Part shown: positions 6,159-34,207 of the stretch, one piece after another
Position numbering within the stretch: the first letter of the stretch is position 1
Layout: each line of letters starts with the position of its first letter
Origin: a virus
DNA: 37,801 nucleotides
IMG/VR virus record: IMGVR_UViG_3300007960_000063
Location: 1-37,801 of that record
Reading direction: 5' to 3' (one strand)
Notes under the pieces: model-generated
Seen by the model: the letters and a program-made list of their open reading frames with translations, nothing else
Database searches by the model: none
What the model was told of the DNA's origin: nothing
Translations under genes and position numbers: made by a program

Positions 6159-6173
6159 GAGTTAATTCCTATG
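6159..6173 (+). promoter_or_regulatory. RBS inside a small hairpin
   Basis: The AGGAG ribosome binding site of the 6171 gene can pair with TTCCT across a TTAA loop (with one G-T pair), ending just before the ATG. The short stem could lower initiation of the largest gene of the phage. Seen in the sequence; the effect is inferred and the stem is weak. Confidence 0.3.
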
Positions 6174-9100
6174 GCTGATCCTCGCGAAATCTGGGAAGTC
6201 GATCCCGCATCCTACATGGAGGAACCGGCGACGACGCCGAAAAAGTCGCGCATCCAGAGGTTGCGGGAGATGATACCAACCCCGTTGGAAGCCCTCGAGA
6301 TGACGGGCCTCATCAACAAAGGCTCCGGCGAGGTGGTCGGAGAGTTGACGGAGGCGGCTGCTCGCACTGCGCCCTACTGGACACCCGGTGCCGGTTACAT
6401 CCTCGGGCCGCAGCAGTTCTCTCATGGCTGGGACCAGATCACTGAGCCAAGGGAAAGGTCCAGCCTCGGCCCGGTTCCGCTCCCCGACGCGCAGGACGCC
6501 GTCGGCGCTCTGAATATGCTGGGCGGCACCCTCGATGTCGGCTTCGAGGCGCTGGACACCTATCTGCCGGGGGAGTGGCCAGCGCTCGCCATCCTCTGGG
6601 GCCTGCCCGCGCACAGGGTAAAGAACGTCGATGACGCGATTGATGCGGCGAGGATGGCTGGCAGGGTTGCCGACATGCGCCACGCCGACAACATGGCCGA
6701 CGCGGTGACCGATGTCGCGAGGGTCGCCGACGACATCCCTGCGCACCTCGACGACACGGACAAGGCGCTGTTCCGCGCGAAGCGCATGATGCAGGACGCC
6801 GGTCTGACGCCGGAGGATTTCATCGGCGACCGCCGCACCCAGAGAGCCACCGAGATCGCGAAAAACATCGCCGAGGAGACTGGCCTCTACCCGGACGTGA
6901 CGGGTCACTGGATGCAGGGGGTGTCGGACGCCGACATGAGGCTCCTCACGCCAAAGGAAAGGAGCGCTCGCCGTAGTGAGGCCATCGCCCGCTGGAAGAA
7001 GTTGAAGGACGAGAGCACTTCCTTCGTCGATATCTACAACGACCGCCCATACAGGGAGATGGACTTCGGCGATCAGTACGAGATGCCGTTCCGCTTTCCG
7101 GGAGCAAAGGAAACCGACCAGTTTGGCAGGCCAGCCAGCGAACTGGTGGACTTCCGCGCCGCCCTCAAGAGGCAAGCGAAAGAGGCTGAGAGCGTCGCGG
7201 ACGCATATGGCAGAAGCACTTCTGCCTACGGCAGCGGTGAGGGCGTCCCCCTGTGGTCGGTGCTCGAGCATGACGAGGCCTACAAGGCGATCCCGGAACT
7301 GCGGAACATCGACTTCGCCTATGATCCCGGCCTCCCCGACAGCACGATGGGGAGTTTCGACGACAGTCTGAACAGGCTTCGCCTCAATCCGGCCTATTCC
7401 GGGGATGAGTTGAAGATGGTCCTCGGCCATGAGTTGAACCATGCCGCAGCCAAGTTCACTGGAGCGCCGCAGGGGACTTTCGTCGGAGGCTTCGTCAACA
7501 AGGCAGAAATGGACAAGGTGCGCAGCGCGCGGTCTATGCTGATCCAGCAGATGAAGGCTGACGGCTTCGATGATAAAAAGATCGAGGCCGCAAAAATCCT
7601 TCTCGACGACCTCTCTGCAACCCGCAACTCAAGAGACGTTCTCGACGTCGTGGCGAGAGTGACTTCCGGCAATCCAGACTGGGTGAACAATAATGCGGAA
7701 CTGATTGCTCAGGCTTCTCCATACACGAAGCGCGCCGTCGAGAATGTGCTCACAGGACAGGCGGTCGCGCCAGACTGGGCCAATGAGCGGAGAAGGCTGC
7801 TTTTCGACGACTACACCAACAGGGTCGGAGAGGCGAACTCCGACGCTGTCGGGGCGGTAATCAAGAGCGATTTGAGCGGTCGCCCGCGCAACCCGGATGG
7901 CGGCGATCTGCAATACATCTGGGACAATTCCCGGAAATCGACATCGAAATTCGTGGATCGCGGCACTCCGTCGAGGAAGCAGTACATCACCCGCGTGATG
8001 GATGCCCGCGAGGCGCAGCACGGCGCGGAGCGCGACCTCATCGTGGGAACTCCAGAGGAGCGGTTCCTCGCCTCGAAGGGTGACACCGCCGGGTATGCTT
8101 CCCTCTCGGAGGACTTTGTGCCGGAGCGCGCCCCGAGGGAACCCGTCCTCCCGGACGAGGAACTCTATGCCGAGCCGCATTCGAGGCCGGAGTGGAACGG
8201 CCTGCCTCCAGACCGCAGCGGCGGCGCGCAGCCGATCTACCAGCCGAAGAAATCGACGGCGCGTATGCAGGCGCTCAAGGACCGCCTCAAGTCCAGCGTC
8301 GCGGCGATCAAGGGGCTGGACGATGACCTCTATCGAGGCGTTACGGACTTCAAGGGGGCCGACTGGTACAACACCGAGCAGGCCTACCAGATCGCCCTGA
8401 AAGTGGCCAATGGCGACCCTGTTCTGGCGCAGCGCATGCTGGACGAGAAGATGCTGTTTGAGGCGGCGTCGTCCTCGGGTGCAAACGTCGAGGCGCAGGG
8501 CTTCACCGCTGCCGCCATGCAGCGTCTCTACAGGGACGAGGCCGATGTCCCCGGCTCGCTGAGAAACTTCAAGGAACACCTCCTCGCGACCAATTCTCAG
8601 GCCGACAACAAGACGCTCGGCCAGATGCTGCCGAAGGGGGCTGGTCACAAGAACAGCTACCACCATATCGGCACGGCGAACGCCATGCTGCGGGAGCGCG
8701 ATCTGGGTATCCCGATCCCGCCCGACAGCTACCAGAAGCCGCGCTCCTTCAAGGGCGCGCTCATGGGAAACCCGGAGGACGTGGCGGTCGATCTCCACGC
8801 CTTCCGCCGTCTCGGTCAGGCCTCGGGGGACCCCGCGTTCCTGAATACCGGCGCAACGGTGTCCAAGGCGTTCCGCGACGAGATCGTCGCCCAGTACCCG
8901 GATGCGGCGCGGTTCTTCACGGACAACCCGAAAAGCAGTGATGTCGTGTTCAAGGCGCGCGACGCCTACGACAGCGGCGTCGTCCCCTTCGAGGCAATGA
9001 GCGGCTACCGTCGCGTGTTCTCGGAGATGCCGACCGAGGCAGAGTACGCCGACGCCAAGGGCATCTTCGCTGACCTGAAAAACCGCTTCAACAGGTCGAA

Positions 9101-10391
9101 GGCCAAGCGATCCGGGAAGCCTCCGCTTCGCGCGAACTCTCAGGCGCAGGCCGGTGTCTGGGTGGGCGCGGGCGACGAGACTGGCGTGTCGGCGCGCAGT
9201 GACGGGACATTCATGGAGAACCGTTTCCGCCTCGCCAAGGCTCGCGCGGAAAAGACTGGTCGCCCAGTGTCTGAGGTACTGGACGACTGGATGGCCGGTA
9301 AGCAGACCCTCGGCAACGTGGCGGAGAACCCGACCCTCAAGGGCGACTGGTCGGAGTTGAACCGCAAGAATGCAGGCTTCCCCGGTGAGAGCGTGTTCCT
9401 GACGCATGAGGATGTCGTCAGCGGCGACAGGCTCCACGGGACGAGGATGGGCGACTGGTCGGGCGAGGGGTACGACGATGTGTGGACGCATGAGATTGCC
9501 AAGGCGCTCGGTCCTCGCCGCGCAATGGAGGCTGGCGTTTCCGAGGGGCAGGGCATCTTCAATGGCCAGATAAGTGGCCCGAACCGCGTCCCGGACCTTC
9601 GCGTTCGCAAGGAGTTCGGCCCACTCGGCAATGAAATCGGGTTCCCGGCAGACGTGAAGGACGCGCTCGACGCGACAAACATGGGGCGCGCACTGGGAGA
9701 CATACAGCAGGCCGAGGCCTACACGGTCCCCTTCCGCAGCGACAACATGGTGCCGGGGCAGAACTCGGTGCTGGGCCGGTGGTTCCCCGGATCGGAAGGG
9801 CCGCTGTCCCCGGACGAGGTTGCCCGCCTCTCCGAGGTCGGCAGGAAATACGGTCGCCCGGACATCAACGACCTCGGCTCCGGCTTCGTCGCCACGAATT
9901 ACGGCGGCGACATGCCGAAACTGCCGGTCGCAAAGGAAAGCGCGATGCGGACAGAGATGCGTCGCGCTCTCGCCGCAAACCGCAAAGCGAACCTCTACGA
10001 GACGGAACTGCTGCCAGACACCTATATCTCGGCATTCGAGCGCGACGACTACGTGCCGGGCAAGGGCGTCCTCACCCGCGACTTCCTCGACCGCATGAAC
10101 AGGCTCAACCCGCAGATAAGGGACGCGCTCAACAGCAGCGTGGAAATCCCGAAGCAGTTCGCGAAGAAGGCGGCGATTGCAGAGGCTGCGGCGGCGCAAA
10201 CCGGCGTCGATGCCGAGGACATCCTCAACCTGATGAAAACCATCGGGGAAGGCCCCGATTGGATTGAAAGGCTGGAGGACGCAGTCAAGCGCGGCGTCGC
10301 CCTTCCTGCCGTCGCGGCGGCGATCCTCGGCGCTGCAGCAATGCAGTCGCAGGGGATGCGAGGCGACGACGAAACTGCTATTCAAGGCTGA
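6171..10391 (+). CDS. Giant internal virion protein with HExxH metallopeptidase motif
   Basis: A 1406-residue protein, the largest in the genome. Residues 420-424 read HELNH inside VLGHELNHAA, the zinc-binding signature of zincin metallopeptidases. The region near residues 690-900 is a separate compact domain (motifs ADWYNTEQAYQIALKV and NPEDVAVDLHAFRRLG) resembling enzyme-like domains seen in phage DNA-transfer proteins. The far C-terminal end is helical with an Ala-rich hydrophobic segment near 1377-1396 that could cross a membrane. Position after tail genes and before further large internal proteins fits an ejection protein carried in the capsid. The peptidase could act on itself, on other ejection proteins or on host envelope; this is inference. 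Confidence 0.65.
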   Translation: MADPREIWEVDPASYMEEPATTPKKSRIQRLREMIPTPLEALEMTGLINKGSGEVVGELTEAAARTAPYWTPGAGYILGPQQFSHGWDQITEPRERSSLGPVPLPDAQDAVGALNMLGGTLDVGFEALDTYLPGEWPALAILWGLPAHRVKNVDDAIDAARMAGRVADMRHADNMADAVTDVARVADDIPAHLDDTDKALFRAKRMMQDAGLTPEDFIGDRRTQRATEIAKNIAEETGLYPDVTGHWMQGVSDADMRLLTPKERSARRSEAIARWKKLKDESTSFVDIYNDRPYREMDFGDQYEMPFRFPGAKETDQFGRPASELVDFRAALKRQAKEAESVADAYGRSTSAYGSGEGVPLWSVLEHDEAYKAIPELRNIDFAYDPGLPDSTMGSFDDSLNRLRLNPAYSGDELKMVLGHELNHAAAKFTGAPQGTFVGGFVNKAEMDKVRSARSMLIQQMKADGFDDKKIEAAKILLDDLSATRNSRDVLDVVARVTSGNPDWVNNNAELIAQASPYTKRAVENVLTGQAVAPDWANERRRLLFDDYTNRVGEANSDAVGAVIKSDLSGRPRNPDGGDLQYIWDNSRKSTSKFVDRGTPSRKQYITRVMDAREAQHGAERDLIVGTPEERFLASKGDTAGYASLSEDFVPERAPREPVLPDEELYAEPHSRPEWNGLPPDRSGGAQPIYQPKKSTARMQALKDRLKSSVAAIKGLDDDLYRGVTDFKGADWYNTEQAYQIALKVANGDPVLAQRMLDEKMLFEAASSSGANVEAQGFTAAAMQRLYRDEADVPGSLRNFKEHLLATNSQADNKTLGQMLPKGAGHKNSYHHIGTANAMLRERDLGIPIPPDSYQKPRSFKGALMGNPEDVAVDLHAFRRLGQASGDPAFLNTGATVSKAFRDEIVAQYPDAARFFTDNPKSSDVVFKARDAYDSGVVPFEAMSGYRRVFSEMPTEAEYADAKGIFADLKNRFNRSKAKRSGKPPLRANSQAQAGVWVGAGDETGVSARSDGTFMENRFRLAKARAEKTGRPVSEVLDDWMAGKQTLGNVAENPTLKGDWSELNRKNAGFPGESVFLTHEDVVSGDRLHGTRMGDWSGEGYDDVWTHEIAKALGPRRAMEAGVSEGQGIFNGQISGPNRVPDLRVRKEFGPLGNEIGFPADVKDALDATNMGRALGDIQQAEAYTVPFRSDNMVPGQNSVLGRWFPGSEGPLSPDEVARLSEVGRKYGRPDINDLGSGFVATNYGGDMPKLPVAKESAMRTEMRRALAANRKANLYETELLPDTYISAFERDDYVPGKGVLTRDFLDRMNRLNPQIRDALNSSVEIPKQFAKKAAIAEAAAAQTGVDAEDILNLMKTIGEGPDWIERLEDAVKRGVALPAVAAAILGAAAMQSQGMRGDDETAIQG

Positions 10392-18405: not shown

Positions 18406-18807
18406 TCAGTCTTTCCTCCTGTATCGCCGGGCCAGTCCCGGCATTCCGATCCCCGTGACCTTCTCCGGGACGAGCGGCTTTCGCGGCTTCTCCTCCCTCG
18501 GCTTGTCGCGGGCCTTCATCTGCTTGTCGGCGAGGCGCTTCGCCTTCGCCAGTGCGGGCTGTCGAGCGGTCGTCCGATAGCGATGGCAGGACGGACAGAC
18601 GGCGAGGCAGTTGTCCAGATCGGCGCTGCCTCCCAGAGCCGCCTCGACCCGGCTGTGATCGTACTCGACGCCCAGCGCCAGCGAGGTCGTGCAGCGGACG
18701 CCGGGCGGCATGCCGTAATCCTCGCCGATAGCCTCGCAGATGCCGCCGGAGCGCATGTGCGCCTGCCTCTTCGTCTCGGCCCGGAACTCGGCCCTCTTCG
18801 ATTTCAT
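18406..18807 (-). CDS. HNH endonuclease
   Basis: A 133-residue protein. The core reads EYDHSRVEAALGG (D50, H51), then LDNCLAVCPSCHRYRT (N66, C71, C74, H75), the order of an HNH nuclease with a structural zinc site; C24 and C39 may supply the other zinc ligands. The basic ends suit DNA binding. It is the last of the coupled recombination genes (ATGA overlap at 18804-18807 with the DUF1367-like gene), so a role in recombination-associated cleavage is more likely than a homing role. A packaging-associated HNH is usually beside the terminase, which this is not. Confidence 0.85.
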   Translation of the reverse strand: MKSKRAEFRAETKRQAHMRSGGICEAIGEDYGMPPGVRCTTSLALGVEYDHSRVEAALGGSADLDNCLAVCPSCHRYRTTARQPALAKAKRLADKQMKARDKPREEKPRKPLVPEKVTGIGMPGLARRYRRKD

Positions 18808-19577
18808 CTCAGGCCCTCACCGCTCGCCACCTTCGGCATTGCCTTCTCCGTCAGATCGGAGCGCAACCGCTTCCCTTGAGCAATCTCCATCGCCCAGACC
18901 CAGATGATTTTTGCCGTCATCCGCCCCAACTCGGACATCTCGCGGATGACATCTGCGTAGGCGACGTTCACCTTGCGCGCCTTCTCGAACATCCGGTTGT
19001 CCACCGAGCGGACGCGCTCTTTTCGGAACTGCTTCTCGCGCTCGTCGTGCCACGCCTCCATCGCCGCGTCGAGGTCGAGAACGTACTGGATGAGCGCCGC
19101 CACCTCGTCGGGCGGCAGGATCGTCGGCTCAGGCCTCGAGGATGCCTCCACAGAGGCAAGGTGCTGCCGGTGCTCCTCGCCAGTCCAGCCATAGGTTTCT
19201 GCCAGCCATCGCTCAGCCTCGGCGAAATAGCGCACCATTTCCGCCTCCGGCAGGGCTTCGATGGCAATTGATGACGGCACTGTGAGGGTGACGCCGTTCG
19301 GAAGGCGCGCCTCCTCGGTGAGGCCGACGCCCATCTTAACGACGTTGTGCATGCACCCTGCGGTCGGAGCGCCGCCGGTCGCCTCAAGCACCTCAAATAT
19401 CATCGCCCAGTAGGCGCGCAGCCGGGCGCGATTTCGGAAATGCCCGATGCTGATTGCCACCCTGTCGCCTTCCTTGTAGCCCTCAAGCGCGCGGGCGTCG
19501 TAGTCCATCTCCGGCACCAGATTTCCTCCGCGCACGATCCATGCGTAGACCGGCCTGTCCTTTCGCTTGGCGCTCAT
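18804..19577 (-). CDS. DUF1367/NinB-like recombination-associated protein
   Basis: A 257-residue protein. The N-terminal half (MDYDARALEGYKEGD, then GHFRNRARLRAYWAMIFEVLE) has the pattern of phage proteins of the DUF1367 kind, which sit in recombination modules: conserved RN..R..YW. The C-terminal half (REKQFRKERVRSVDN, then MFEKARKVNVAYADVIREM) is helical and basic. It overlaps the HicA-like gene upstream and the HNH gene downstream by ATGA, so it is co-translated with RecT. The family match is from memory of the pattern and the function of the family is poorly known. Confidence 0.55.
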   Translation of the reverse strand: MSAKRKDRPVYAWIVRGGNLVPEMDYDARALEGYKEGDRVAISIGHFRNRARLRAYWAMIFEVLEATGGAPTAGCMHNVVKMGVGLTEEARLPNGVTLTVPSSIAIEALPEAEMVRYFAEAERWLAETYGWTGEEHRQHLASVEASSRPEPTILPPDEVAALIQYVLDLDAAMEAWHDEREKQFRKERVRSVDNRMFEKARKVNVAYADVIREMSELGRMTAKIIWVWAMEIAQGKRLRSDLTEKAMPKVASGEGLR

Positions 19578-19807
19578 TGGTGCTGGTCCCTCCTTGAGGC
19601 ATAGAAACCGCCAGCCCGCACAGCAGCGCGGACAGTCGTCCGAAAATTCAGGAAGGCGCGCGGGTCGCGTTTCTTCGTCGCGCTGATCGGGACTTTGCCT
19701 AGATCGGTTTCCGCGATGATGTGCGGCCCGCCGCCGGTGACGGAGAGGATTTTAACCCCCTCCGTCTCCAGTATCGCGAGAAACTCTCTTGCTGCGCGCG
19801 TCGTCAT
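19574..19807 (-). CDS. HicA-like small protein in the recombination block
   Basis: A 77-residue protein. The frame is open further upstream, but the ATG at 19807 overlaps the RecT stop by ATGA, matching the coupling used by all neighbours, and gives a sensible fold. Strand-helix pattern FLAILETEGVKILSVTGGGPHIIAE, then SATKKRDPRAFLNFRTTVR, resembles small phage proteins of the HicA/dsRBD fold, with the GxHxx strand and the S..(D)xR...N helix. In HicA toxins the His is catalytic on RNA; here there is no HicB next to it. A nucleic-acid-binding helper of RecT is possible. Confidence 0.55.
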   Translation of the reverse strand: MTTRAAREFLAILETEGVKILSVTGGGPHIIAETDLGKVPISATKKRDPRAFLNFRTTVRAAVRAGGFYASRRDQHQ

Positions 19808-20679
19808 TTCAGCGCCTCCCGGATGCGGGCCTTGGCGCTCTGGTAGGCTTCGTGGGCGACTGCCATCATATCCTCGTTCCAGTCGTCCATCTGCGCCTGC
19901 GACCAGAGCCAGTCCACCTCGTCGAACTCCTCGGCCCTGTACAGGTGCTCCATCATTTCCGGGTGGTCTGCCGGGTTCTCGATTTTCGGCCACTCATGCT
20001 TTGCCTCCGGCTCCGGCTCCGGCGGCGGCGTGAACAACTGCGGCTGCGGCTGGTGTTCGATCACCTCGCCGACCGGGGTGTCCTCCAGTTCGTCGGCGCT
20101 GATCGCGCCGCCCAGAATATCGGCGAACAGATCGCGGAGGCACCAGCCGGTGGCGCGCCATTTCGCCATCCGCTCGCGGTAGAGGAACCACGGCGAGTTG
20201 TTCGCGACCTTCCTTCCGGACCTGTCTTGGACGTACTCGCTGTCCACCAGCAGCTTGGCGTGGCGAGCCTGCTGGAGAGAGAACTCGACGCGGCTCTCCT
20301 CGCCCGTGTCGCTGCGCTTCGCCTCGCACCAGCCGATCTCGCGCTCGGCGTCGTAGCCGGTGCGGATGTAGGCGGCGCGACCGGAGCGGCGGCACACTGA
20401 AATGAGGCCGTCAGCGTACAGGGCAGGCCGACCATTGACGACGGCGATGGAGCGCAGGCTCGCCATCGGAGGCAGGCCCAGTTCCGCGCCGAACAGGATG
20501 GCGGTGGCAATCGCCGACTTGGCGGTGTCGCCGTCCTTGTCTCCGGTGAGCGATTTCGGCGCGAGGCCTGCCAGATGCACCATCTGGGCGATCCGGTAGA
20601 CCTCCTCGATGGTGTGCGGGATGATGGCAGAAACGCTGCCACCGGCTACCAGTGCGGTCTTTACTGCGGGGACGTTCAT
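19804..20679 (-). CDS. recT: RecT-family single-strand annealing protein
   Basis: A 291-residue protein with family hallmarks: an N-terminal TIEEVYRIAQMVHLAGLAP helix, KSAIATAILFGAELGLPPMASL, then IAVVNGRPALYADGL, and the long central beta region ending in KWRATGWCLRDLFADIL. These match the core of RecT-type annealases that coat single-stranded DNA and pair it with complementary strands, usually at replication forks. The length fits the family. It overlaps the 306-residue gene upstream and the HicA-like gene downstream by ATGA. The expected partner exonuclease is not adjacent; the PD-(D/E)XK protein at 24831 could fill that role. The C-terminal 70 residues are acidic and variable. Confidence 0.85.
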   Translation of the reverse strand: MNVPAVKTALVAGGSVSAIIPHTIEEVYRIAQMVHLAGLAPKSLTGDKDGDTAKSAIATAILFGAELGLPPMASLRSIAVVNGRPALYADGLISVCRRSGRAAYIRTGYDAEREIGWCEAKRSDTGEESRVEFSLQQARHAKLLVDSEYVQDRSGRKVANNSPWFLYRERMAKWRATGWCLRDLFADILGGAISADELEDTPVGEVIEHQPQPQLFTPPPEPEPEAKHEWPKIENPADHPEMMEHLYRAEEFDEVDWLWSQAQMDDWNEDMMAVAHEAYQSAKARIREALK

Positions 20680-21596
20680 ACGACCTGCTCCTTCTCTTCG
20701 ATCCTCATGCCGGGCAGGGCGATGCCTGCGCGGGCTGATGCGTTTGCAACCTTGCTCACTGCGGTCCGCACCTCAGCATGATCGCTGACGGCTGCGAGCA
20801 GCGCCGCGTAGTCGGTGATGACTGCCTCCTTCGTCTTGCGGACGACAACCTTCTCGCCGACCTTGCCGACCGCGACCGGCGGCGCGGTCGGGTCATTCGG
20901 TTTCTGCGACGCCATCCAGTCGGCGATCTGCAGGCGGGCGTCGGCGATCACCTCGCGGCAGGCGTCGGTGACGGCGCGCCAGCGAGCGTCGATCTCGCGG
21001 CCAAGCTGCAGGACAGGCTTTTTCTCGCCTTCGTGGAGATTTTTCGCCTCCTTCTCGAGTGCGAGGGCAAAGGTCCTGATGCTGGCGGCTTCGTCTGCCG
21101 CCTCCTGCGAGCGGATCGGGAAGCCCACCTCTTTCAGGCGCGCCGCCGCATCACCCGCCGCATTGGCGAGGCGCTCGGCTTCGGTCTGGGCATCGTCTCC
21201 GGTGCCCCGCTTGAAACCGCGTTTCTCGAGCGTGTCCATCGGTCGAGCGGGGCGACCATCGGCCCAGAAACCGCCCTGCACGGCAGACTGGTGTTCCTCG
21301 TAGGTGACAGCGGAGCAGCCCAGCCACGACCCGCCGCCGAGGAACTCATCCCATTCGGGCGTTCCCTCGACGATGTAGGTCGCCTTGATGCCTGCTCCGA
21401 AAATCGCGAGGAGGCGGTCGCCATGCTCAGGGCTGGGCAGGATTGCCAGCGGCCAGTCGCATTTCGTGGCCGCTCCGGCGGTGCGCCAGTAGCCTGCGAT
21501 CAGGCCCTCGGCAGCGGCGACGCAATCGCGCTCCTGCCTGACGCCCGCGAGTTCCTGACGCCAATAGCGCCACGGGTCTTTCTTGGTGTTTGCCAT
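20676..21596 (-). CDS. RecT-partner coiled-coil protein, unknown
   Basis: A 306-residue protein with the usual CCAGAGGAGACTGAA leader before ATG 21596. Residues 1-130 form a compact domain (WRYWRQELAGVRQERDCV, then GSWLGCSAVTYEEH). Residues 145-235 form a long charged coiled coil (LEKEAKNLHEGEKKPV). Residues 240-306 form a basic Ala-rich tail with KVANASARAGIALPGMRI. Proteins with this coiled coil and Ala-rich end are often found next to recT in phages of alphaproteobacteria, by my recollection; no catalytic motif is visible. Coupled to RecT by ATGA, so they should be made in equal amounts. Confidence 0.6.
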   Translation of the reverse strand: MANTKKDPWRYWRQELAGVRQERDCVAAAEGLIAGYWRTAGAATKCDWPLAILPSPEHGDRLLAIFGAGIKATYIVEGTPEWDEFLGGGSWLGCSAVTYEEHQSAVQGGFWADGRPARPMDTLEKRGFKRGTGDDAQTEAERLANAAGDAAARLKEVGFPIRSQEAADEAASIRTFALALEKEAKNLHEGEKKPVLQLGREIDARWRAVTDACREVIADARLQIADWMASQKPNDPTAPPVAVGKVGEKVVVRKTKEAVITDYAALLAAVSDHAEVRTAVSKVANASARAGIALPGMRIEEKEQVV

Positions 21597-24834: not shown

Positions 24835-25343
24835 TTCTCGTCCTCCGCATCGCGCAGCAGCCTGCCACCCAGCAGGGGGATGTAGCAATTCAGCCTGTGC
24901 GCCTCGCCGCCATTGACCGTCGCCCGAGTTTTCGTTCGCTCCCAGCGGATGCCGGGGAGCAGGCCGCGCTGCTGGTTGTAAACGTCGATCAACACAACGC
25001 GGTGCGCATCTGGCTCGTCGCGCAGATAGACCAACACCCAGAAAGCGCAGCCCAGAAGGTCCGCACCGACGATCCCGCTGCGCACCTTGTCGGCGCTCAG
25101 GATCAGAGTGCCGCCGTGGACGCTCTTCATCCTCTCGACCGTCTCGCTGCGAGTTTTCTGCTCGACGACGGCGACAAGGTCCCCGGAAACAGGGTCCGCG
25201 ACGACCGCGTCGAGCGGCCATGCAGACCCGGCCTTCGACCCGGCAAAATACCTATGGCCGGTCGCCCTTTCCAGAGCGCGGGCCGCTCGACGCTCATACT
25301 CCAGCGTCTCGCGACCGCGCTCGGTGTCGATGTCGAGGCTCAC
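24831..25343 (-). CDS. PD-(D/E)XK-type nuclease
   Basis: From GTG 25343, which overlaps the GcrA stop by GTGA, the protein has 170 residues; TTG 25364 is a possible earlier start without a binding site. The core is SAWPLDAVVADPV (D45) followed by DLVAVVEQKTRS with E61-x-K63, the catalytic D...ExK of this nuclease superfamily; E17 in the first helix may complete the site. The size suits a stand-alone exonuclease or structure-specific nuclease. As the phage encodes RecT elsewhere without a partner exonuclease, this protein could make the single strands RecT needs. Interaction is inferred. Confidence 0.65.
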   Translation of the reverse strand: MSLDIDTERGRETLEYERRAARALERATGHRYFAGSKAGSAWPLDAVVADPVSGDLVAVVEQKTRSETVERMKSVHGGTLILSADKVRSGIVGADLLGCAFWVLVYLRDEPDAHRVVLIDVYNQQRGLLPGIRWERTKTRATVNGGEAHRLNCYIPLLGGRLLRDAEDEK

Positions 25344-25870
25344 GCCGCCCTGCCCGGTTGCCAAGCGTCATGGCAGATGCGGTGGTGCGCGGCGCAGTAT
25401 GGACTGCCCTCGCGCTTGGGGTGGCCGCAGAAACCGTAGTCGCTGCGCTTCGGGTCGCCATAGATATAGCGGCAGGAGTTGCGCTCGAGGTCCTCCAGCG
25501 CCAGCATCAGCGGAGGCTCGGCCTCCTCGATCACTTGTGACACCGTGGACACGCGCTGCGCCTCCCTCGCCAATCGGCTGGCGATGACGGGGTTCCGGCG
25601 CTCAGCCTTCGGCCTCGGCCTCTCCTCGGCCTCCCGGCTCATCGCCTTCGCCCTCCGCGCCAGCATATCATTTTTCTGCCGGGGCGACATTTTCCAATGA
25701 GGTATCCAGCGATGGGCGTGGCCGATTACGACGTTCTTGGAGACGCCCTCGACGCCGGAGGCGGCGATTGCTGCGGCGATGTCACCCCTCGGCATCTCGC
25801 GCGTCCCGTGCGACAGGATCAGCGCGGTTTTCTGGTCCCGGCTCAGGGACCTCCAGTGGATAGTCGGCAA
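25340..25870 (-). CDS. gcrA-like: GcrA-family cell-cycle regulator homologue
   Basis: A 176-residue protein from TTG 25870, with AGAGGAG eight bases upstream; the next ATG would delete the first HTH helix. Residues 5-55 (HWRSLSRDQKTAL, IAAAIAASG, VSKNVVIGHAHR) match the GcrA N-terminal winged HTH, which in Caulobacter recognises GANTC methylated by CcrM. The C-terminal end (C133, C148, C159 and following His) carries the typical CRYIYGDP...FCGHP...GSPYC block of the sigma-70-interacting domain. The length equals cellular GcrA (about 173 residues). It overlaps the XRE gene by 89 bases. GcrA is confined to alphaproteobacteria and their phages. It probably redirects host RNA polymerase or mimics GcrA. 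Confidence 0.85.
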   Translation of the reverse strand: MPTIHWRSLSRDQKTALILSHGTREMPRGDIAAAIAASGVEGVSKNVVIGHAHRWIPHWKMSPRQKNDMLARRAKAMSREAEERPRPKAERRNPVIASRLAREAQRVSTVSQVIEEAEPPLMLALEDLERNSCRYIYGDPKRSDYGFCGHPKREGSPYCAAHHRICHDAWQPGRAA

Positions 25871-26294
25871 AGTAGCTTCTCCTCTGTCTCTGCTTCCTCG
25901 GTTCCGAAAATGCGTGGCGCACGGTGCGCCAGCCATATCTCGCTCGCTCCTGCTCGGTCGGCATTCTGAAAATCCACTCGTCGCGCCAGTGGTCCATCAT
26001 CACGCAGCGCGCGAAATCTCGCAGCCTGCGGATGTACCACCACGGCAACTGCCGGAAGCCGCGCTCGTACTCGGACAGGCGCGACTGGCGGATGCGCAGC
26101 ATGGCGGAAATGTCCCGCTGCGACCGGCCCAGCATCTCGGAGCGAATGTAGGCGACGCGCAGGGCAAGGTCCGTGTCCACCTCGCGCTGGTGTCGCATTG
26201 TCGATGCGTCCCAGCCCGGCGGCGTGTCGAGGCCCTGCTCAACGGTCGCCGCCTGAAAGCGGCGGCGCACCTCTCTCTCTGTTCTCTCTGTCAT
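25782..26294 (-). CDS. XRE-type HTH regulator, likely early repressor
   Basis: A 170-residue protein. Residues 46-95 form a helix-turn-helix: RVAYIRSEML, GRSQRDISAMLRIRQSRLSE, YERGFRQLPWWYIRRL. The spacing (SQRDISAML, then RQSRLSEYERG) is that of Cro/CI-type domains. The N-terminal 40 residues and the basic C-terminal tail lie outside the domain. It is the first gene of the leftward region, facing the divergent rightward module P5, the classical position for a switch repressor. Its ATG lacks a binding site and the message may be leaderless. It is the best candidate to bind the GTCACGNNNCGTGAC palindromes. Confidence 0.75.
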   Translation of the reverse strand: MTERTEREVRRRFQAATVEQGLDTPPGWDASTMRHQREVDTDLALRVAYIRSEMLGRSQRDISAMLRIRQSRLSEYERGFRQLPWWYIRRLRDFARCVMMDHWRDEWIFRMPTEQERARYGWRTVRHAFSEPRKQRQRRSYFADYPLEVPEPGPENRADPVARDARDAEG

Positions 26295-26302
26295 GTGAGC
26301 CG

Positions 26303-26330
26303 CTTTAACGGATCAGCGAGCGAGATGCAA
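26303..26330 (-). promoter_or_regulatory. Candidate promoter of the XRE regulator, near-leaderless
   Basis: Read leftward: TTGCAT (26325-26330), 16-bp spacer, TTAAAG (26303-26308). The predicted transcription start is about two bases before the ATG at 26294, so the mRNA would have almost no leader. The boxes are only moderately close to consensus. Confidence 0.4.
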
Positions 26331-26342
26331 GCGCCGGGCCTC

Positions 26343-26376
26343 CGTGGTCAGAAAATGGATTGATTTTCTGACCACG
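26343..26376. repeat. Perfect 14-bp inverted repeat between divergent promoters
   Basis: CGTGGTCAGAAAAT (26343-26356) and its exact complement (26363-26376) flank a 6-base centre. It ends two bases before the -35 of module P5 and lies 13 bases upstream of the regulator promoter, so a protein bound here would touch both. It is unrelated to the 15-bp operator sequence. Confidence 0.8.
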
Positions 26377-26378
26377 CC

Positions 26379-26432
26379 TTGTACCTGCCACGGTGCGTGA
26401 CTATATACATGGGGCGGGGCGATGGTCGCCCC
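26379..26432 (+). promoter_or_regulatory. Promoter/operator/hairpin module P5
   Basis: -35 TTGTAC (26379-26384), operator GCCACGGTGCGTGAC (26387-26401), -10 TATATA (26402-26407), hairpin GGGGCGATGGTCGCCCC (26416-26432), whose last two bases begin the CCAGAGGAG site. Bases 26387-26432 are the exact inverted copy of module P1. The predicted start near 26414 puts the hairpin at the 5' end of the RNA. Confidence 0.8.
26387..26432 (+). repeat. 46-bp inverted repeat, right copy
   Basis: Exact reverse complement of 18151-18196; see that entry. Together they bracket the leftward early region. Confidence 0.85.
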
Positions 26433-26446
26433 AGAGGAGACAAGTG

Positions 26447-26689
26447 ATGTCATACACCACCCGCACCCGAGAGTTCGGCGAGGTCACCTTCCGCGCGCCA
26501 GCCGCGACGGACACTTATTCCGGGTATGTCTGGATCGAGGGCGAGGCCTTCCCGCAGCGCCAGCAGATTTGCTACGGCGGCAACTTCATGGGCGGCACCG
26601 TCACGGCGACGGACAGAAACCTCAAGGAAGTCGCCCAGAAGTGGCTGCGCGACCGGAGGCGCGGCCAGCGCAAGTGGGGTAACTTTTGA
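26447..26689 (+). CDS. Small rightward protein, unknown
   Basis: An 80-residue protein starting at ATG 26447, eight bases after AGAGGAG; an upstream in-frame ATG lies inside the promoter and cannot be used. The first 50 residues are beta-rich (FGEVTFRAPAATDTYSGYVW, then QICYGGNFMGGTVTA) and the end is strongly basic (EVAQKWLRDRRRGQRKW). Its own promoter, module P5, is the only rightward copy, so it should be made early and under the same control as the leftward genes. Function not recognised. Confidence 0.65.
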   Translation: MSYTTRTREFGEVTFRAPAATDTYSGYVWIEGEAFPQRQQICYGGNFMGGTVTATDRNLKEVAQKWLRDRRRGQRKWGNF

Positions 26690-26729
26690 TTGCACCCAGC
26701 GAATAACCACACCCCAGAGGAGACTGACA

Positions 26730-26966
26730 ATGACCACCTACAAGCACCCGAAGCGGTTCACGATCCGACCGATTGCCGACGAATATCTGGAGGCCGTCGA
26801 GGAGGATGTGATCCTCGCGGAGTACGACGACTACGACGACGCCAAGGCGGGCGCAGGGAGGCTCTCAGGAGGCTACCACTACGGCGTCGCCATCGTGGAC
26901 GAGCGGCAGCAGCTACTCGATGTCGGGTTCGGTCTGGGCGTGAAATGCCCCGAACTGCCAGAGTGA
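26730..26966 (+). CDS. Small acidic protein, unknown
   Basis: A 78-residue protein starting at ATG 26730 behind CCAGAGGAGACTGACA. It opens with a basic strand (YKHPKRFTIRPIADEYLEA) and then becomes acidic (EEDVILAEYDDYDDAKAG), ending in VDERQQLLDVGFGLG. The acidic surface suggests a protein- or DNA-mimic partner, but that is speculation. It is the second and last gene of the P5 transcript and is followed by a strong terminator hairpin. Confidence 0.6.
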   Translation: MTTYKHPKRFTIRPIADEYLEAVEEDVILAEYDDYDDAKAGAGRLSGGYHYGVAIVDERQQLLDVGFGLGVKCPELPE

Positions 26967-26979
26967 GGTAACAGAGTAC

Positions 26980-27022
26980 CGCATCCCATAGGGCGAAACG
27001 CTCTGTGGGATGCGCGCGTTTT
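26980..27022 (+). terminator. Terminator after the P5 transcript
   Basis: CGCATCCCA/TGGGATGCG (9 bp) encloses AGGGCG/CGCTCT (6 bp with one G-T pair) and an AAA loop, with one mismatch between the two stems; TTTT follows at 27019-27022. It starts 13 bases after the last P5 gene. Confidence 0.7.
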
Positions 27023-27029
27023 GCGGCAT

Positions 27030-27390
27030 TGCATCCGGGGCTGGGGCTGGCGTATGTTCGCCGCCACCGACATAGCCAGCCCACCGACTGGGCCGAACCT
27101 TGGGAAACATGACCGAGGGGAATTAGGGAAGGGCATCCCGCACACAAGCGACCCCAGCCTGAGAGGACTGGGAGCCTCCCCCCGGTTGCCGAACTAGCCG
27201 GAGGGAGGTGCCGTCAGAATGACTGCCGTTGTCAGGGTGTACCGGCTGACCGCCACCTGACCCCGCCCAGTGTGGTTTCAATACCGCACCTGTTGCCGGG
27301 AAGCAACGAGTTCGGTGCCTCGGCTCCACGCCTTCGTCTCAAGTGGACAGAGCACACACGTTTCCCCTGCAAGGGCGACGTGTGCCTTCA
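27030..27390 (+). ncRNA. Candidate structured RNA
   Basis: Stems read on the plus strand include GGGCTGGC-g-TATGT paired with ACATA-GCCAGCCC (27044-27082, 13 bp with one bulge), CCCAG/CTGGG (27153-27172), a 10-of-11-bp stem CCTCCCCCCGG/CCGGAGGGAGG (27175-27208), GTTGC/GCAAC (27292-27307) and a GCACA/TGTGC stem near 27352-27385. GC-rich DNA forms stems by chance, so conservation is needed. No known RNA class (tRNA, tmRNA, RNase P, SRP) was recognised. Confidence 0.3.
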
Positions 27391-27430
27391 CCACAACCTT
27401 GAACTCAGTAGACAGAAGCAGAGCGGTCGC

Positions 27431-27600
27431 CAAAAACTCCCCCTTAAAATCAATTCAAGATCAAAACATACATAGTTTATTATTCCCTGATCCCAGAGCG
27501 TCGGTTGCAGGCAACGAGAGCCTCGAAACACTCCACTTCTCCACTGCCCCTGTGGATAACTTGTGGACAATACTGAATAACTTAGTGGAACTGTGAATAA
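27431..27600. other. Probable replication origin with DnaA boxes
   Basis: Plus-strand 9-mers TGTGGATAA (27551; complement of the perfect box TTATCCACA), TGTGGACAA (27562), a weak ACTGAATAA (27572) and TGTGAATAA (27592) are spaced 11, 10 and 20 bases, i.e. whole helical turns. The most AT-rich stretch I see in the genome (27431-27487) lies just beside them and could unwind. No phage initiator, helicase or polymerase gene was found, so use of host DnaA is likely. Confidence 0.65.
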
Positions 27601-27632
27601 CCCCTCGATCAGCACCGGGGGGGGCCGGGGGG

Positions 27633-27654
27633 GTCGCGTCCCGTGACTTTTTTT
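27633..27654. promoter_or_regulatory. Orphan operator-like palindrome with T7 tract
   Basis: GTCGCGTCCCGTGAC (27633-27647) differs from the ideal operator GTCACGNNNCGTGAC at one position, like the five module operators, but has no -35 or -10 box around it. Seven T residues follow directly. It could be a sixth binding site near the origin or chance. Confidence 0.35.
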
Positions 27655-27737
27655 CGCGCCGCCCTTGCATCCTGCGTCCATCCGCGCCACTCTTCGGGAC
27701 AGCGGGCAATCACGCCTGCCAACCAGAGGAAGAAGAA

Positions 27738-28094
27738 ATGAACACCAACACGAAGGACGAAATCCGCAAGCTGCGGAAGGTGCTGGTCGATGTCGCCAGT
27801 GAGGCGATGCTCAAGGCGGGGCATGAGTACGGCGCAGGCTATGCCAAGGAAGGCGGTGGCCACATGACACATGCGCAGTTCACGCACTGCACGACCGTCA
27901 TGCTCAATGCCACCACGAACGCGCTGATTGCGCTGCTGGCCAACAACATCTCGAACTCGGTCGCAGCCCTCGAGGCGCTGTCCGAGCCGGGCAGCTTCCC
28001 CACCCTCGAGGCCCTGATCGAGCGCGCCACGAAGGACGTGGCGGATATCGCTCGCGAGGTCCACGAAACCCGCAACAATGGGGGCGCAGCATGA
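27738..28094 (+). CDS. Small helical protein A of a paralogous pair
   Basis: A 118-residue protein with CCAGAGGAAGAAGAA before ATG 27738. It is nearly all helix (DEIRKLRKVLVDVASEAMLK, then LEALIERATKDVADIAREV). The segment LNATTNALIALLANNISN-SVA aligns with LTNAMVLALADNIRN-GVA of the next gene, with about half identical residues, so the two arose by duplication. It is the first gene of the rightward late unit, just after the origin. No known family; a small regulatory or assembly protein is possible. Confidence 0.65.
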   Translation: MNTNTKDEIRKLRKVLVDVASEAMLKAGHEYGAGYAKEGGGHMTHAQFTHCTTVMLNATTNALIALLANNISNSVAALEALSEPGSFPTLEALIERATKDVADIAREVHETRNNGGAA

Positions 28095-30460: not shown

Positions 30461-30670
30461 ATGCGTGAGTACAAGAAAGGGGAGTTCGTCTACTGCCGGG
30501 TCCGCGACGAGGCCGAGGAAATGTGGACGATGCGGCGCTACTATGCGAAAAGCCGGGTCTACGGGAAGGAGCGGCACGTCGTCGAGAAGCCTGACGGCAG
30601 CGGCGCGCTCGACTACTATCCCGACAAGTTCGTGAGGCCGATGATTGATGACAGCGGCGGTCAGGATTAA
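30461..30670 (+). CDS. Small protein, unknown
   Basis: A 69-residue protein with AGAGG before ATG 30461. It is charged and rich in Tyr and Arg (YKKGEFVYCRVRDEAEEMW, then MRRYYAKSRVYGKERHVV), beta-rich in outline, and overlaps the start of the terminase gene by 23 bases. Position suggests a packaging or assembly accessory; there is no direct evidence. Confidence 0.55.
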   Translation: MREYKKGEFVYCRVRDEAEEMWTMRRYYAKSRVYGKERHVVEKPDGSGALDYYPDKFVRPMIDDSGGQD

Positions 30671-32183
30671 CCAGTTCGACAACCCAATCTGGAGGCTCCA
30701 CAACCTCTACACGATTGTGGACAAGGACGGGAAGCGCGTCCCCTTCCGCCCGAACGCCGCGCAGCAGCAGTTCCTCGAGGGCATGGGGCGGCGCAATGTG
30801 ATCCTCAAGGCCCGGCAGCTTGGTTTCACGACCCTGTGCTGCCTCCTCTATCTCGACGACTGCCTGTTCAACAAAGACGTCCGCGCCAGCCTGATCGCGC
30901 ACCGGCTGGGCGATGCCAAGGCGATCTTCCGCGACAAGGTCAAGCTGCCCTACGACGTCCTCCCGGAGGGCATCCGCAACATGGTCGGCACCGTCGCCGA
31001 CAGCGCCGACACGCTCACATTCAGCAACAACTCCAGCTTCTCGGTCAGCACCTCGACACGCGGCGGCACCGTGAATTGGCTGCACATCTCGGAGCACGGC
31101 AAGATCGCCGCCCAGTACCCGGAGAAGGCGCGCGAGATAAAGACCGGCGCATTCCCCTCCGCCGAGCGCGGCGTCATCACCATCGAGAGCACCGCCGAGG
31201 GCGACGCCGGAGATTTCTTCGACATCTGCCAAGAGGCTCAGGAGGTCGAGCGCCAAGGCCGAGAGCCGCACCCGACCGACTGGCGGTTCTTTTTCTTCCC
31301 GTGGCTCGCTGAGCCGACCTATCGCCTGCCGCAGACCGTGGTGCCGATCACGCCGGAGGATGAGAGGTACTTCCTCAAGATCGAGGCAGAGACGGGCCGC
31401 ATCCTCGACGAGGCGCAGCGCAACTGGTACGTGCGCGAGCAGAAGCGCCTCGGCGGCGACATGAAGCGCGAGTACCCGGCGACGCCGCGCGAGGCCTTCG
31501 AGCAGGCTCTGGAGGGCGCGTATTTCGCAGACCAGCTTGCCTTCGCCGAGCGGCATGAGCGCATCACCGATCTGCCGATCCGCCCGGAGCGCCTCGTCCA
31601 CACCGCATGGGACCTTGGCCGCAACGACCTGACGAGCATCTGGCTCTGGCAGGACGGCGACGGAGGCCTGAGCGACTTCGTCGGCTACTATGAGGCCAGC
31701 GGCGAGTACATCGCGCACTATGCCGACTGGCTCCGGGGCTGGGCGGTCGAGCATGGCGTCATGTTCGGCAACCACTACATGCCCCACGACGCCAAGCGGG
31801 ACCTCCTCTGGCTCGAGGGAGGGACGCAGGACGTGCTGAAAAAGGTTGGCTTGAGGGTCAGCGTGGTGCCGGTCACGCCGAACAAAATTGAGGCGATACA
31901 GGTGGCGAGGCGGCACCTGATGATGGCGCGCTTCGACCGCGCCCGCTGCGCTCAGGGCCTGAAACGCCTGCGCGCCTACCGCAAAAAGTGGAATGATGTG
32001 CTTGGCACATGGAGCAATGAGCCGCTCCACGACGACAACTCGAACGCGGCTGACGGCTTTATGACCTACGCCCAGTCCGGGCATAAGCCGGTTCAGGTTC
32101 CGTTGCCGGGACAAGCCCGAGGTGATAGGTATTCGCGAGGCAAGGGCCGCAGATCAGGCGGTCGGAGTGCATGGAGCGCGTGA
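30648..32183 (+). CDS. terL: Terminase large subunit
   Basis: A 511-residue protein; I use ATG 30648, since the TTG three bases earlier adds nothing. Residues 52-62 (ILKARQLGFTT) are the terminase-type Walker A, residues 143-151 (NWLHISEHG) Walker B with catalytic E149, and residues 180-186 (ESTAEGD) the coupling motif. The C-terminal nuclease is marked by AWDLGRND (D322) and HDDNSNAADGF near 461-470. It drives DNA into the prohead and cuts it. It overlaps the portal gene (TGATG). The circularly permuted contig would fit headful packaging, but that is not proven. Confidence 0.93.
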   Translation: MTAAVRINQFDNPIWRLHNLYTIVDKDGKRVPFRPNAAQQQFLEGMGRRNVILKARQLGFTTLCCLLYLDDCLFNKDVRASLIAHRLGDAKAIFRDKVKLPYDVLPEGIRNMVGTVADSADTLTFSNNSSFSVSTSTRGGTVNWLHISEHGKIAAQYPEKAREIKTGAFPSAERGVITIESTAEGDAGDFFDICQEAQEVERQGREPHPTDWRFFFFPWLAEPTYRLPQTVVPITPEDERYFLKIEAETGRILDEAQRNWYVREQKRLGGDMKREYPATPREAFEQALEGAYFADQLAFAERHERITDLPIRPERLVHTAWDLGRNDLTSIWLWQDGDGGLSDFVGYYEASGEYIAHYADWLRGWAVEHGVMFGNHYMPHDAKRDLLWLEGGTQDVLKKVGLRVSVVPVTPNKIEAIQVARRHLMMARFDRARCAQGLKRLRAYRKKWNDVLGTWSNEPLHDDNSNAADGFMTYAQSGHKPVQVPLPGQARGDRYSRGKGRRSGGRSAWSA

Positions 32184-34207
32184 TGGCCAGACCAGTCCAG
32201 AATACAGAGCCGAACACCTACGAGGTCACCGACGACGACCTCGCGACCGTCGAGGCGGAGCAGCTTCGCGTCGAGGCCCTGAAAGAAATCCCGCGACCGT
32301 GGAAGCGGTGGTGGCATCTGGACAAGACGCACTCATCCGACTGGCGCAGCGAGGCGCGAGAGGATTACGCCTTCGAGGCCGGGAAACAGTGGAGCGAACA
32401 GGACAAGCAGTTCCTCGAGGAGCAGCTTCGCCCGGTCATCACCTTCAACCGCGTCTCCGTGATCGTGGACACGGTGGCGGGCCACGAAATCCAGAACCGC
32501 AATGAAGTCCGCTTCATGCCGCGCGAGGAGGGCGACGCGCAGGCCAATGAGATATTCACCGAGGCGGCGCGCTGGTTCGACGACGAGGCCGAGGCCGAGG
32601 ACGAGGATAGCGAGGCGTTCCGCGATTGCGCCATCTGCGGCATGGGCTGGACCGAGACGCGCCTCAGCTTCGACGACGACCCGGAGGGCATCCCCGAGGT
32701 CGAGCGCATCGACCCCCTGCAGATGGTCTGGGACCACGCCGCGAGGAAACAGAATTTGAAGGACGCGCGCCGCGTCTGGCGCATGCTGGAACTCGACTGG
32801 GACGTGGTCGAGGATCGCTGGCCGGGCTTCTCGCGATACGAACTCGATGCCAGCATGTGGGCGAACGCCGATCACCCGGACGACCCGCACCGCAACGACC
32901 CGGAGCATTACTACGAAAGCTGGTCTGAGGACGATGAGTTCCCGGTCGAGCGCAAGTGCCGCATCCTTCAGTTGCAGTACTGGGTGTGGGAGTTCTTCGT
33001 TCGCGTCGCCGACCCGTTCCAGCCGGGCAACATCGTCAGCATGTCGATGGAGGAATATCAGCGCCTGCAGACCATCATGGCCCAGCAATTTCCGGGCGTC
33101 CCGATCAAGGGCGTTGTGCAGCGCCGGAAGCAATACAGGCAGGCCTTCCTCGGCAATGTCGTGCTGCAGGACGAGATTGCCCCCTGCAAGAGCGCCTTTT
33201 CATTCAACTGCATCACGGGCAAGTTCGACCGCAATGATGGGACGTGGTACGGCCTCGTCAGGGCGATGAAGGACCCGCAACGCTGGGCCAACAAATGGCT
33301 CAGCCAGATGTTGCACATAATGAACAGCAACTCGCAGGGCGGCATCATCATCGAGGAGGGGGCGATCCCGGAGGGCATGGAGGAAGAGTTCGCCGATAGC
33401 TGGGCGCGCCCGGATGGCGTCTCCATCGTCGCCAATGGCACGATTTCCGGCAGTCGCCTGCGCGACAAGCCCCAGCCGACGTTCCCGCAGGGCTTCCAGA
33501 TACTCACCCAGTTCGCCGTCGATGCGATCCGCGAGGTGGTCGGCGTCTCTCTTGAAATGATGGGCATGCGCGAGCAGGATCAGCCCGGCATCCTCGAGTA
33601 TCAGCGCAAGCAGGCCGGGATGGCGGTGCTGGCCGGGATTTTCAATTCCCTGCGGCGCTACCGCAAGCGGCGCGGTCGCCTGATGCTGCACTACATCACC
33701 AGCTACCTCAGCGACGGTCGCCTCGTCCGCATTGTCGGCGAGGGGCGGCAGCAATACGTGCCGCTCATGCGTCGCGGCGATGTGACATACGACGTGATCG
33801 TGGACGAGAGCGCGTCGAGTGTGAACCAGAAGGAGATGGTCTGGACGGGCCTCATGCAAATCTTGCCCGGCATCAAGGACGTGCTGCCGCCGCAGGCCTT
33901 CGTCGAACTTCTCAGCTACTCGCCCTTCCCGACGAGCGTCGTCGAGAAAGTGAAGCAGATCATCAACGCCCCGAACCCGCAGGCGGAGGAGCAGGCGAAG
34001 AATGAAGCGGCGAAGCTGTTGGCCGAGGTCAACAAGACGCAGGCCGAGGGCCAGAGAGCACAGGTCGAGGGCCAGAAGGCGCAGGCCGAGATCGGCAAGG
34101 TCCAGTCCGAGATCGTCGAAAATCAGGCCGACACCCTGCTGAAACAGGCACGGGCGGCGAACGAACTGAGGAGCGGGGAGCGCCCCGGCCTCGATACCCC
34201 CGCATAG
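32183..34207 (+). CDS. Portal protein, P22 type
   Basis: A 674-residue protein from ATG 32183, sharing its A with the terminase stop; an in-frame ATG at 32171 is an alternative. The N-terminal part (KRWWHLDKTHSSDWR, then QLRPVITFNRVSVIVDTVAG, HEIQNRNEVRFMPREEGD) is characteristic of P22-like portals. The middle contains PITK-type clip and stem elements and REVVGVSLEMMGMREQDQPG. The last 100 residues are a long Gln/Ala/Glu helix (QAEEQAKNEAAKLLAEVNK), the barrel that extends into the capsid. It forms the dodecameric DNA channel. Confidence 0.88.
   Translation: MARPVQNTEPNTYEVTDDDLATVEAEQLRVEALKEIPRPWKRWWHLDKTHSSDWRSEAREDYAFEAGKQWSEQDKQFLEEQLRPVITFNRVSVIVDTVAGHEIQNRNEVRFMPREEGDAQANEIFTEAARWFDDEAEAEDEDSEAFRDCAICGMGWTETRLSFDDDPEGIPEVERIDPLQMVWDHAARKQNLKDARRVWRMLELDWDVVEDRWPGFSRYELDASMWANADHPDDPHRNDPEHYYESWSEDDEFPVERKCRILQLQYWVWEFFVRVADPFQPGNIVSMSMEEYQRLQTIMAQQFPGVPIKGVVQRRKQYRQAFLGNVVLQDEIAPCKSAFSFNCITGKFDRNDGTWYGLVRAMKDPQRWANKWLSQMLHIMNSNSQGGIIIEEGAIPEGMEEEFADSWARPDGVSIVANGTISGSRLRDKPQPTFPQGFQILTQFAVDAIREVVGVSLEMMGMREQDQPGILEYQRKQAGMAVLAGIFNSLRRYRKRRGRLMLHYITSYLSDGRLVRIVGEGRQQYVPLMRRGDVTYDVIVDESASSVNQKEMVWTGLMQILPGIKDVLPPQAFVELLSYSPFPTSVVEKVKQIINAPNPQAEEQAKNEAAKLLAEVNKTQAEGQRAQVEGQKAQAEIGKVQSEIVENQADTLLKQARAANELRSGERPGLDTPA

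Follow-up and report, generated by a model that had tools for sequence, protein, structure and literature searches.

How does a tailed phage begin to copy its genome when no gene for doing so can be recognised in it, and might a few DnaA boxes in a non-coding gap provide the answer? The DNA analysed here (the window) is an entire uncultured virus record of 37,801 bases, in which an earlier note had pointed to DnaA boxes beside an AT-rich block and proposed that host DnaA starts replication there, making the phage dependent on the host replication cycle.

Gene content and the search for replication genes

The two ends of the record overlap imperfectly (49 of 51 bases), and collapsing the overlap closes a reading frame; the genome is thus circular or circularly permuted, about 37.75 kb long and near-complete. 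Judged by its gene families, the phage is podovirus-like, with a P22-type portal, terminase, capsid (PF13252), ejection and lysis genes. Gene direction switches at about 26.3 kb, between a leftward early operon, which also holds an HNH nuclease, and a rightward operon leading into the terminase and capsid genes (Table 1). An open reading frame of 1406 residues within the virion gene block (6171-10391, plus strand) has no PHROGs match. No near DNA relatives among phages were found for the right-hand 22.8 kb, and a single-protein scan with RecT returned no relatives.

Table 1. Positions of the features discussed, numbered along the window
Feature	Position	Strand	Basis
NinB/Orf-like recombination mediator	18804..19577	-	phrog_319, 1.5e-10
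RecT-like single-strand annealing protein	19804..20679	-	phrog_561, 3.5e-17
RecT neighbour, C-terminus matching a phage exonuclease family	20676..21596	-	phrog_10477, 3.9e-05
GcrA-family cell-cycle regulator, phage-encoded	25340..25936	-	PF07750, 2.3e-19
Helix-turn-helix protein, encoded first in the leftward early operon	25782..26294	-	weak HTH matches
Non-coding gap, 771 bp, holding the array and the AT block	26967..27737		second largest gap of the genome
Stretch rich in AT with the least stable helix; candidate DNA-unwinding element	27435..27492		AT content and nearest-neighbour energy
DnaA box, exact, TTATCCACA	27551..27559	-	the genome has no other exact match
DnaA box TTGTCCACA, single mismatch, 11 bp along from the exact box	27562..27570	-	box scan
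Weak element TTATTCAGT resembling a box, with three mismatches; unit 2 of the 21-bp array	27572..27580	-	sequence
DnaA box TTATTCACA, one mismatch	27592..27600	-	box scan
First gene of the rightward operon leading into the terminase and capsid genes	27738..28094	+	without family match
Terminase large subunit	30645..32183	+	phrog_2, 4.5e-29; 61% identity to Pseudohoeflea contig
Portal protein, P22-type	32171..34207	+	PF16510, 1.4e-112

As far as Pfam and PHROGs can show, the evidence supports the claim that an initiator, a helicase, a primase and a polymerase are all missing from the phage. The complete list of 14 Pfam families matched by 48 open reading frames contains none of replication, and no replication family occurred among the best 25 of 70 PHROGs families or in the proteins scanned directly. 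DnaA domain IV, AAA_25 and DNA_pol_A (DNA polymerase A) were all absent from the record, the early open reading frames matched no replication family, and a Walker-A search of the long frames gave nothing convincing, its two matches being chance-like and outside the early genes. A replication module of the lambda/P22 O-P type was rejected because genes for an O-like initiator and a helicase loader were not found among the Pfam matches or the best 25 PHROGs families, and a plasmid-type Rep/iteron origin because neither an initiator gene (Pfam, PHROGs) nor iterons beside the boxes were detected. A small, diverged initiator may be present among the early proteins; it could escape detection because about 87% of PHROGs have no assigned function and the AlphaFold models of two early proteins of no known family were unusable (pLDDT of 43 and 35).

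A phased array of DnaA boxes beside easily melted DNA

The four elements of the earlier note all lie where it had placed them, including the one it had called weak, which carries three mismatches. A 21-bp tandem array describes the stretch more precisely than separate boxes do: a repeat of 20-21 bp fills the 52 bp from 27550 to 27601 two and a half times (CTGTGGATAACTTGTGGACAA / TACTGAATAACTTAGTGGAA / CTGTGAATAAC), and Tandem Repeats Finder independently marks the same interval as tandem, with a 21-bp period and 2.5 copies. The spacing along the array is consequently about 2 x 10.5 bp, and the three boxes all have one orientation. Lone boxes with at most one mismatch occur at chance frequency over the whole genome (4 sites versus 2.2 expected), one further one-mismatch box lying at 30716. 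Three boxes within 50 bp were found in none of 300 whole-genome order-2 Markov sequences and in none of 20,000 local order-1 simulated sequences. The cluster is non-random, far beyond chance, and the predicted DnaA array is probably functional. A G-rich tract (27617-27633) lies directly to its right.

The earlier note was also correct in placing the most AT-rich stretch beside the boxes, since the 50-mer 27435-27484 (74% AT) tops all 50-mers of the genome. In nearest-neighbour energy, the least stable 50-mer of the genome is 27443-27492 (z = 5.8), located 58 bp upstream of the box array, and the array itself is the second least stable 50-mer region. Easily melted DNA thus adjoins a DnaA-box cluster that includes a high-affinity consensus box, two of the marks of an oriC-type origin. 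Neither 13-mers nor a DnaA-trio were recognised by eye in the candidate unwinding region.

The largest non-coding gap of the genome (17447-18405) contains no DnaA box. Within the gap that holds the array, there are no iterons beside the array and, apart from the array itself, only two-copy short repeats; plasmids and phages searched for DNA distantly similar to the gap gave none. A structured RNA was rejected, as 27096-27430 showed no unusual fold (z of -1.4 and -0.8) and an Rfam search of the gap gave no match. The exact CtrA site TTAA-N7-TTAA is absent; a near-match at 27444 was discarded, its one mismatch being expected by chance in AT-rich DNA. A CtrA-controlled phage of the LPEG type was likewise rejected because the gap lacks dense TTAA-N7-TTAA sites. 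A hairpin with 16-nt arms, 88% complementary, lies at 26980-27014, after small rightward genes and before the array.

A turning point of the GC skew had been expected near 27.5 kb. The detrended minimum falls near the expected place, at 28,030 (within 0.5 kb); the amplitude of the skew, however, is not significant (p = 0.20), and the signal is confounded by gene strand, as transcription diverges where the gene direction changes. For these two reasons, the skew is only consistent with an origin.

In layout, the region is similar to the left half of oriC in E. coli (DUE, R1, R5M), where an AT-rich stretch is likewise followed by the high-affinity TGTGGATAA reading away from it. The flank CACTGCCC precedes the box in both, giving CACTGCCC-TGTGGATAAC as at DUE-R1, and the weaker boxes share one orientation; the match of CACTGCCC before TGTGGATAAC is short and may be due to chance. 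Unlike E. coli oriC, the candidate phage origin has fewer boxes, an AT block 58 bp away and no recognised 13-mers or methylation sites. DnaA boxes also occur on the phage or plasmid replicons with Rep/DnaA origins, such as P1 oriR and pSC101. Such plasmid origins need a Rep protein, and P1 and pSC101 also have iterons, whereas neither Rep nor iterons were found here. A PM2-like prophage combines RepA with a TTATCCACA site (PMC1950889). In the alphaproteobacterial LPEG phages, sites for a cell-cycle regulator of the host are concentrated in a non-coding gap, as they are here, but they are CtrA rather than DnaA sites (PMC9437464).

The two-box sequence in other phages, relatives and the host

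The 20-mer that spans the first two boxes, TGTGGATAACTTGTGGACAA, occurs exactly in 59 other viral contigs representing 21 independent, unrelated contexts, whereas the reversed 20-mer used as a control occurs in none, and such box pairs therefore appear to be selected in phages. In 11 of the 21 contexts, at least three boxes lie within 150 bp on either side. Identical copies, often within multi-box arrays, are carried by the uncultured phages L016, L035, L037, L043, L062 and others. Unlike the phage studied here, at least seven of the 21 groups have a replicative helicase or primase-helicase of their own, with matches to DnaB_C (L016, L037, L062/L018, L043/L044 and L030) or to AAA_25 or primase families (L035 and L032/L033); several other contigs with the 20-mer also have no helicase match and may be incomplete. 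As judged from these contigs, DnaA-box arrays are a recurrent phage feature. Because so many of the groups bring their own helicase, the boxes by themselves are no proof of missing replication genes or of host dependence. Among the carriers of the 20-mer, the present phage stands out in that no helicase-type gene was found in it.

Several of these contigs have features of their own. In L005, L042, L043 and L050, a stretch of about 600 bp contains 10-12 exact DnaA boxes; in L043, genes for a primase-helicase and a DNA polymerase lie nearby. A common flank surrounds the 20-mer in L010, L013, L034, L060 and 15 more contigs, several of which are about 14 kb long; L010 carries terminase, portal, capsid and tape-measure genes, and L060 has an exact end repeat of 123 bp. 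The boxes of L035 and L062 precede terminase and portal genes, as they do here.

The portal proteins of the relatives are 37-51% identical, and the terminase is up to 61% identical, in a contig of the alphaproteobacterium Pseudohoeflea. In 3.85 Mb from 239 relatives by portal or terminase, which are loci of phages or prophages, not one cluster of at least three boxes in 60 bp occurred, and no relative was found to be close enough for comparing the non-coding array. Annotated relatives carry other replication genes. Paracoccus phage KLEP18-1 has a primase-polymerase and a helicase, Rhizobium phage RHph_Y1_10 has a 'DNA replication protein' and a GcrA, and phage Mae-JY35 encodes DnaA domain IV as a protein on its own (PF08299, 4.1e-21). 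The lack of clusters and these other genes suggest that the array belongs to the phage's own replication solution and not to its structural family. The small stand-alone phage proteins at L065 (40385-40870) and L308 (489-947) either have a DnaA domain IV, as in Mae-JY35, or are labelled DnaA-like by their annotation, as in RHph_TM3_3_3.

The 20-mer is absent from 385 genomes of the class to which the Pseudohoeflea genome belongs; in the latter genome, exact boxes number only four and do not cluster. The phage genome contains a single GANTC, the CcrM site (at 15290), against about 125 expected from base composition and 195 from dinucleotides. This is the strongest depletion among 48 short palindromic patterns tested, and GANTC is likewise depleted in Paracoccus phage KLEP18-1 (3 versus 131). 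CTAG occurs four times, with about 125 expected. Together, the phage-encoded GcrA and the loss of GANTC point to a CcrM-bearing alphaproteobacterium as the host. The phage encodes a GcrA-family protein, yet its genome is almost devoid of the sites that a methylation-dependent GcrA would use. Since binding of host GcrA is described as dependent on GANTC methylation (PMC3667746), the phage protein presumably works at promoters of the host or recognises a different site.

A candidate host-type origin and its rivals

We lean, by a little, towards the interpretation that 27435-27601 is a theta-type origin opened by host DnaA. DnaA would first occupy the two boxes at 27551 (exact) and 27562 and from there spread over the weaker elements of the array with its 20-21 bp period, in helical phase and in one orientation, and the resulting strain would open the AT-rich block on the left. 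The host helicase, primase and polymerase would be loaded next, as the phage supplies none of the three. At a later stage, the RecT, exonuclease-like and NinB proteins of the phage would convert the circles to concatemers that can be packaged. We infer all these steps, from DnaA binding and opening through initiation to recombination, from the sequence features. Against this origin stand the 58 bp between the AT block and the first box, a distance greater than that of DUE-R1 in E. coli, the lack of any three-box cluster among the 239 relatives, the non-significant skew amplitude and the many phages with the 20-mer that possess their own helicase.

DnaA might instead act here as a transcription factor that times or restrains the rightward operon leading to the genes for terminase, portal and capsid, a role that CtrA has in other alphaproteobacterial phages. 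The array lies 138-187 bp upstream of the first gene of that operon, the boxes of L035 and L062 are also found ahead of terminase and portal genes, and there is a precedent in the control of alphaphage promoters by CtrA, a host cell-cycle regulator (PMC9437464). We regard this role as unlikely, as no sigma-70-like promoter was detected in 26200-28000 (alphaproteobacterial promoters deviate from that consensus), and as it would leave both the extreme helix instability by the boxes and the replication of the phage unexplained. The boxes might also serve to titrate host DnaA, soaking it up at high copy number and thereby stopping host initiation in the manner of datA, or to count copies. Other phages do have 11-12 exact boxes in 600 bp (L043, L005, L050), and in one of them, L043, which encodes a primase-helicase and a polymerase close to the boxes, host DnaA is less needed at an origin. 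The present phage has only three good boxes, and titration gives no reason for the adjoining AT-rich block or the helical phasing, which makes this function very improbable.

At P1 oriR and pSC101, Rep and DnaA act together, and an initiator or helicase loader encoded among the small early genes of no known function might similarly be assisted by DnaA at the array. Many early proteins have no family, helicases of their own occur in other phages that share the 20-mer, and in one relative DnaA domain IV forms a protein by itself. We nevertheless consider such an assisted origin quite improbable, given that there are no iterons near the array, no convincing Walker-A protein and no early open reading frame that matches a replication family. 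That the cluster arose by chance, or is a functionless remnant, is scarcely credible: the array is not conserved in relatives, as this explanation would predict, but neither the 20,000 local nor the 300 genome-wide simulations reproduced it, and no such cluster occurred in the 3.85 Mb of related phage DNA.

Returning to the origin opened by host DnaA, the earlier proposal thus holds in part. The array, the weakest helix of the genome and the lack of a detectable replication protein all fit a DnaA-driven start, whereas the argument that the boxes are there because the genes are missing is weakened by the helicase-bearing phages. Dependence on the host replication cycle was itself deduced rather than seen, and the GcrA gene and the purge of GANTC independently tie the phage to the alphaproteobacterial cell-cycle circuit. 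A bolder version, which we put forward tentatively and as rather less than probable, is that of an autonomous tailed phage without initiator, loader, helicase, primase or polymerase, replicating from a miniature host-type oriC through host DnaA alone. Such a phage would be locked to the alphaproteobacterial cell cycle, with a GcrA of its own, and freed from CcrM control by the near-total loss of GANTC.

Phages usually bring at least an initiator. A DnaA-dependent origin is a known kind of origin, and its setting here is rarely described in the literature searched, where one predicted phage origin with DnaA boxes was found (PMC11512268). A survey of 499 phage genomes reported clustering of CtrA sites and no asymmetric clustering of DnaA sites (PMC9437464), in contrast to the DnaA-box pair that recurs in 21 contexts among uncultured phages. 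If the proposed origin is real, a phage that borrows DnaA and the whole replisome would start replication only when its host can, and such a host-tied start would bear on the timing of infection, latency and host range.
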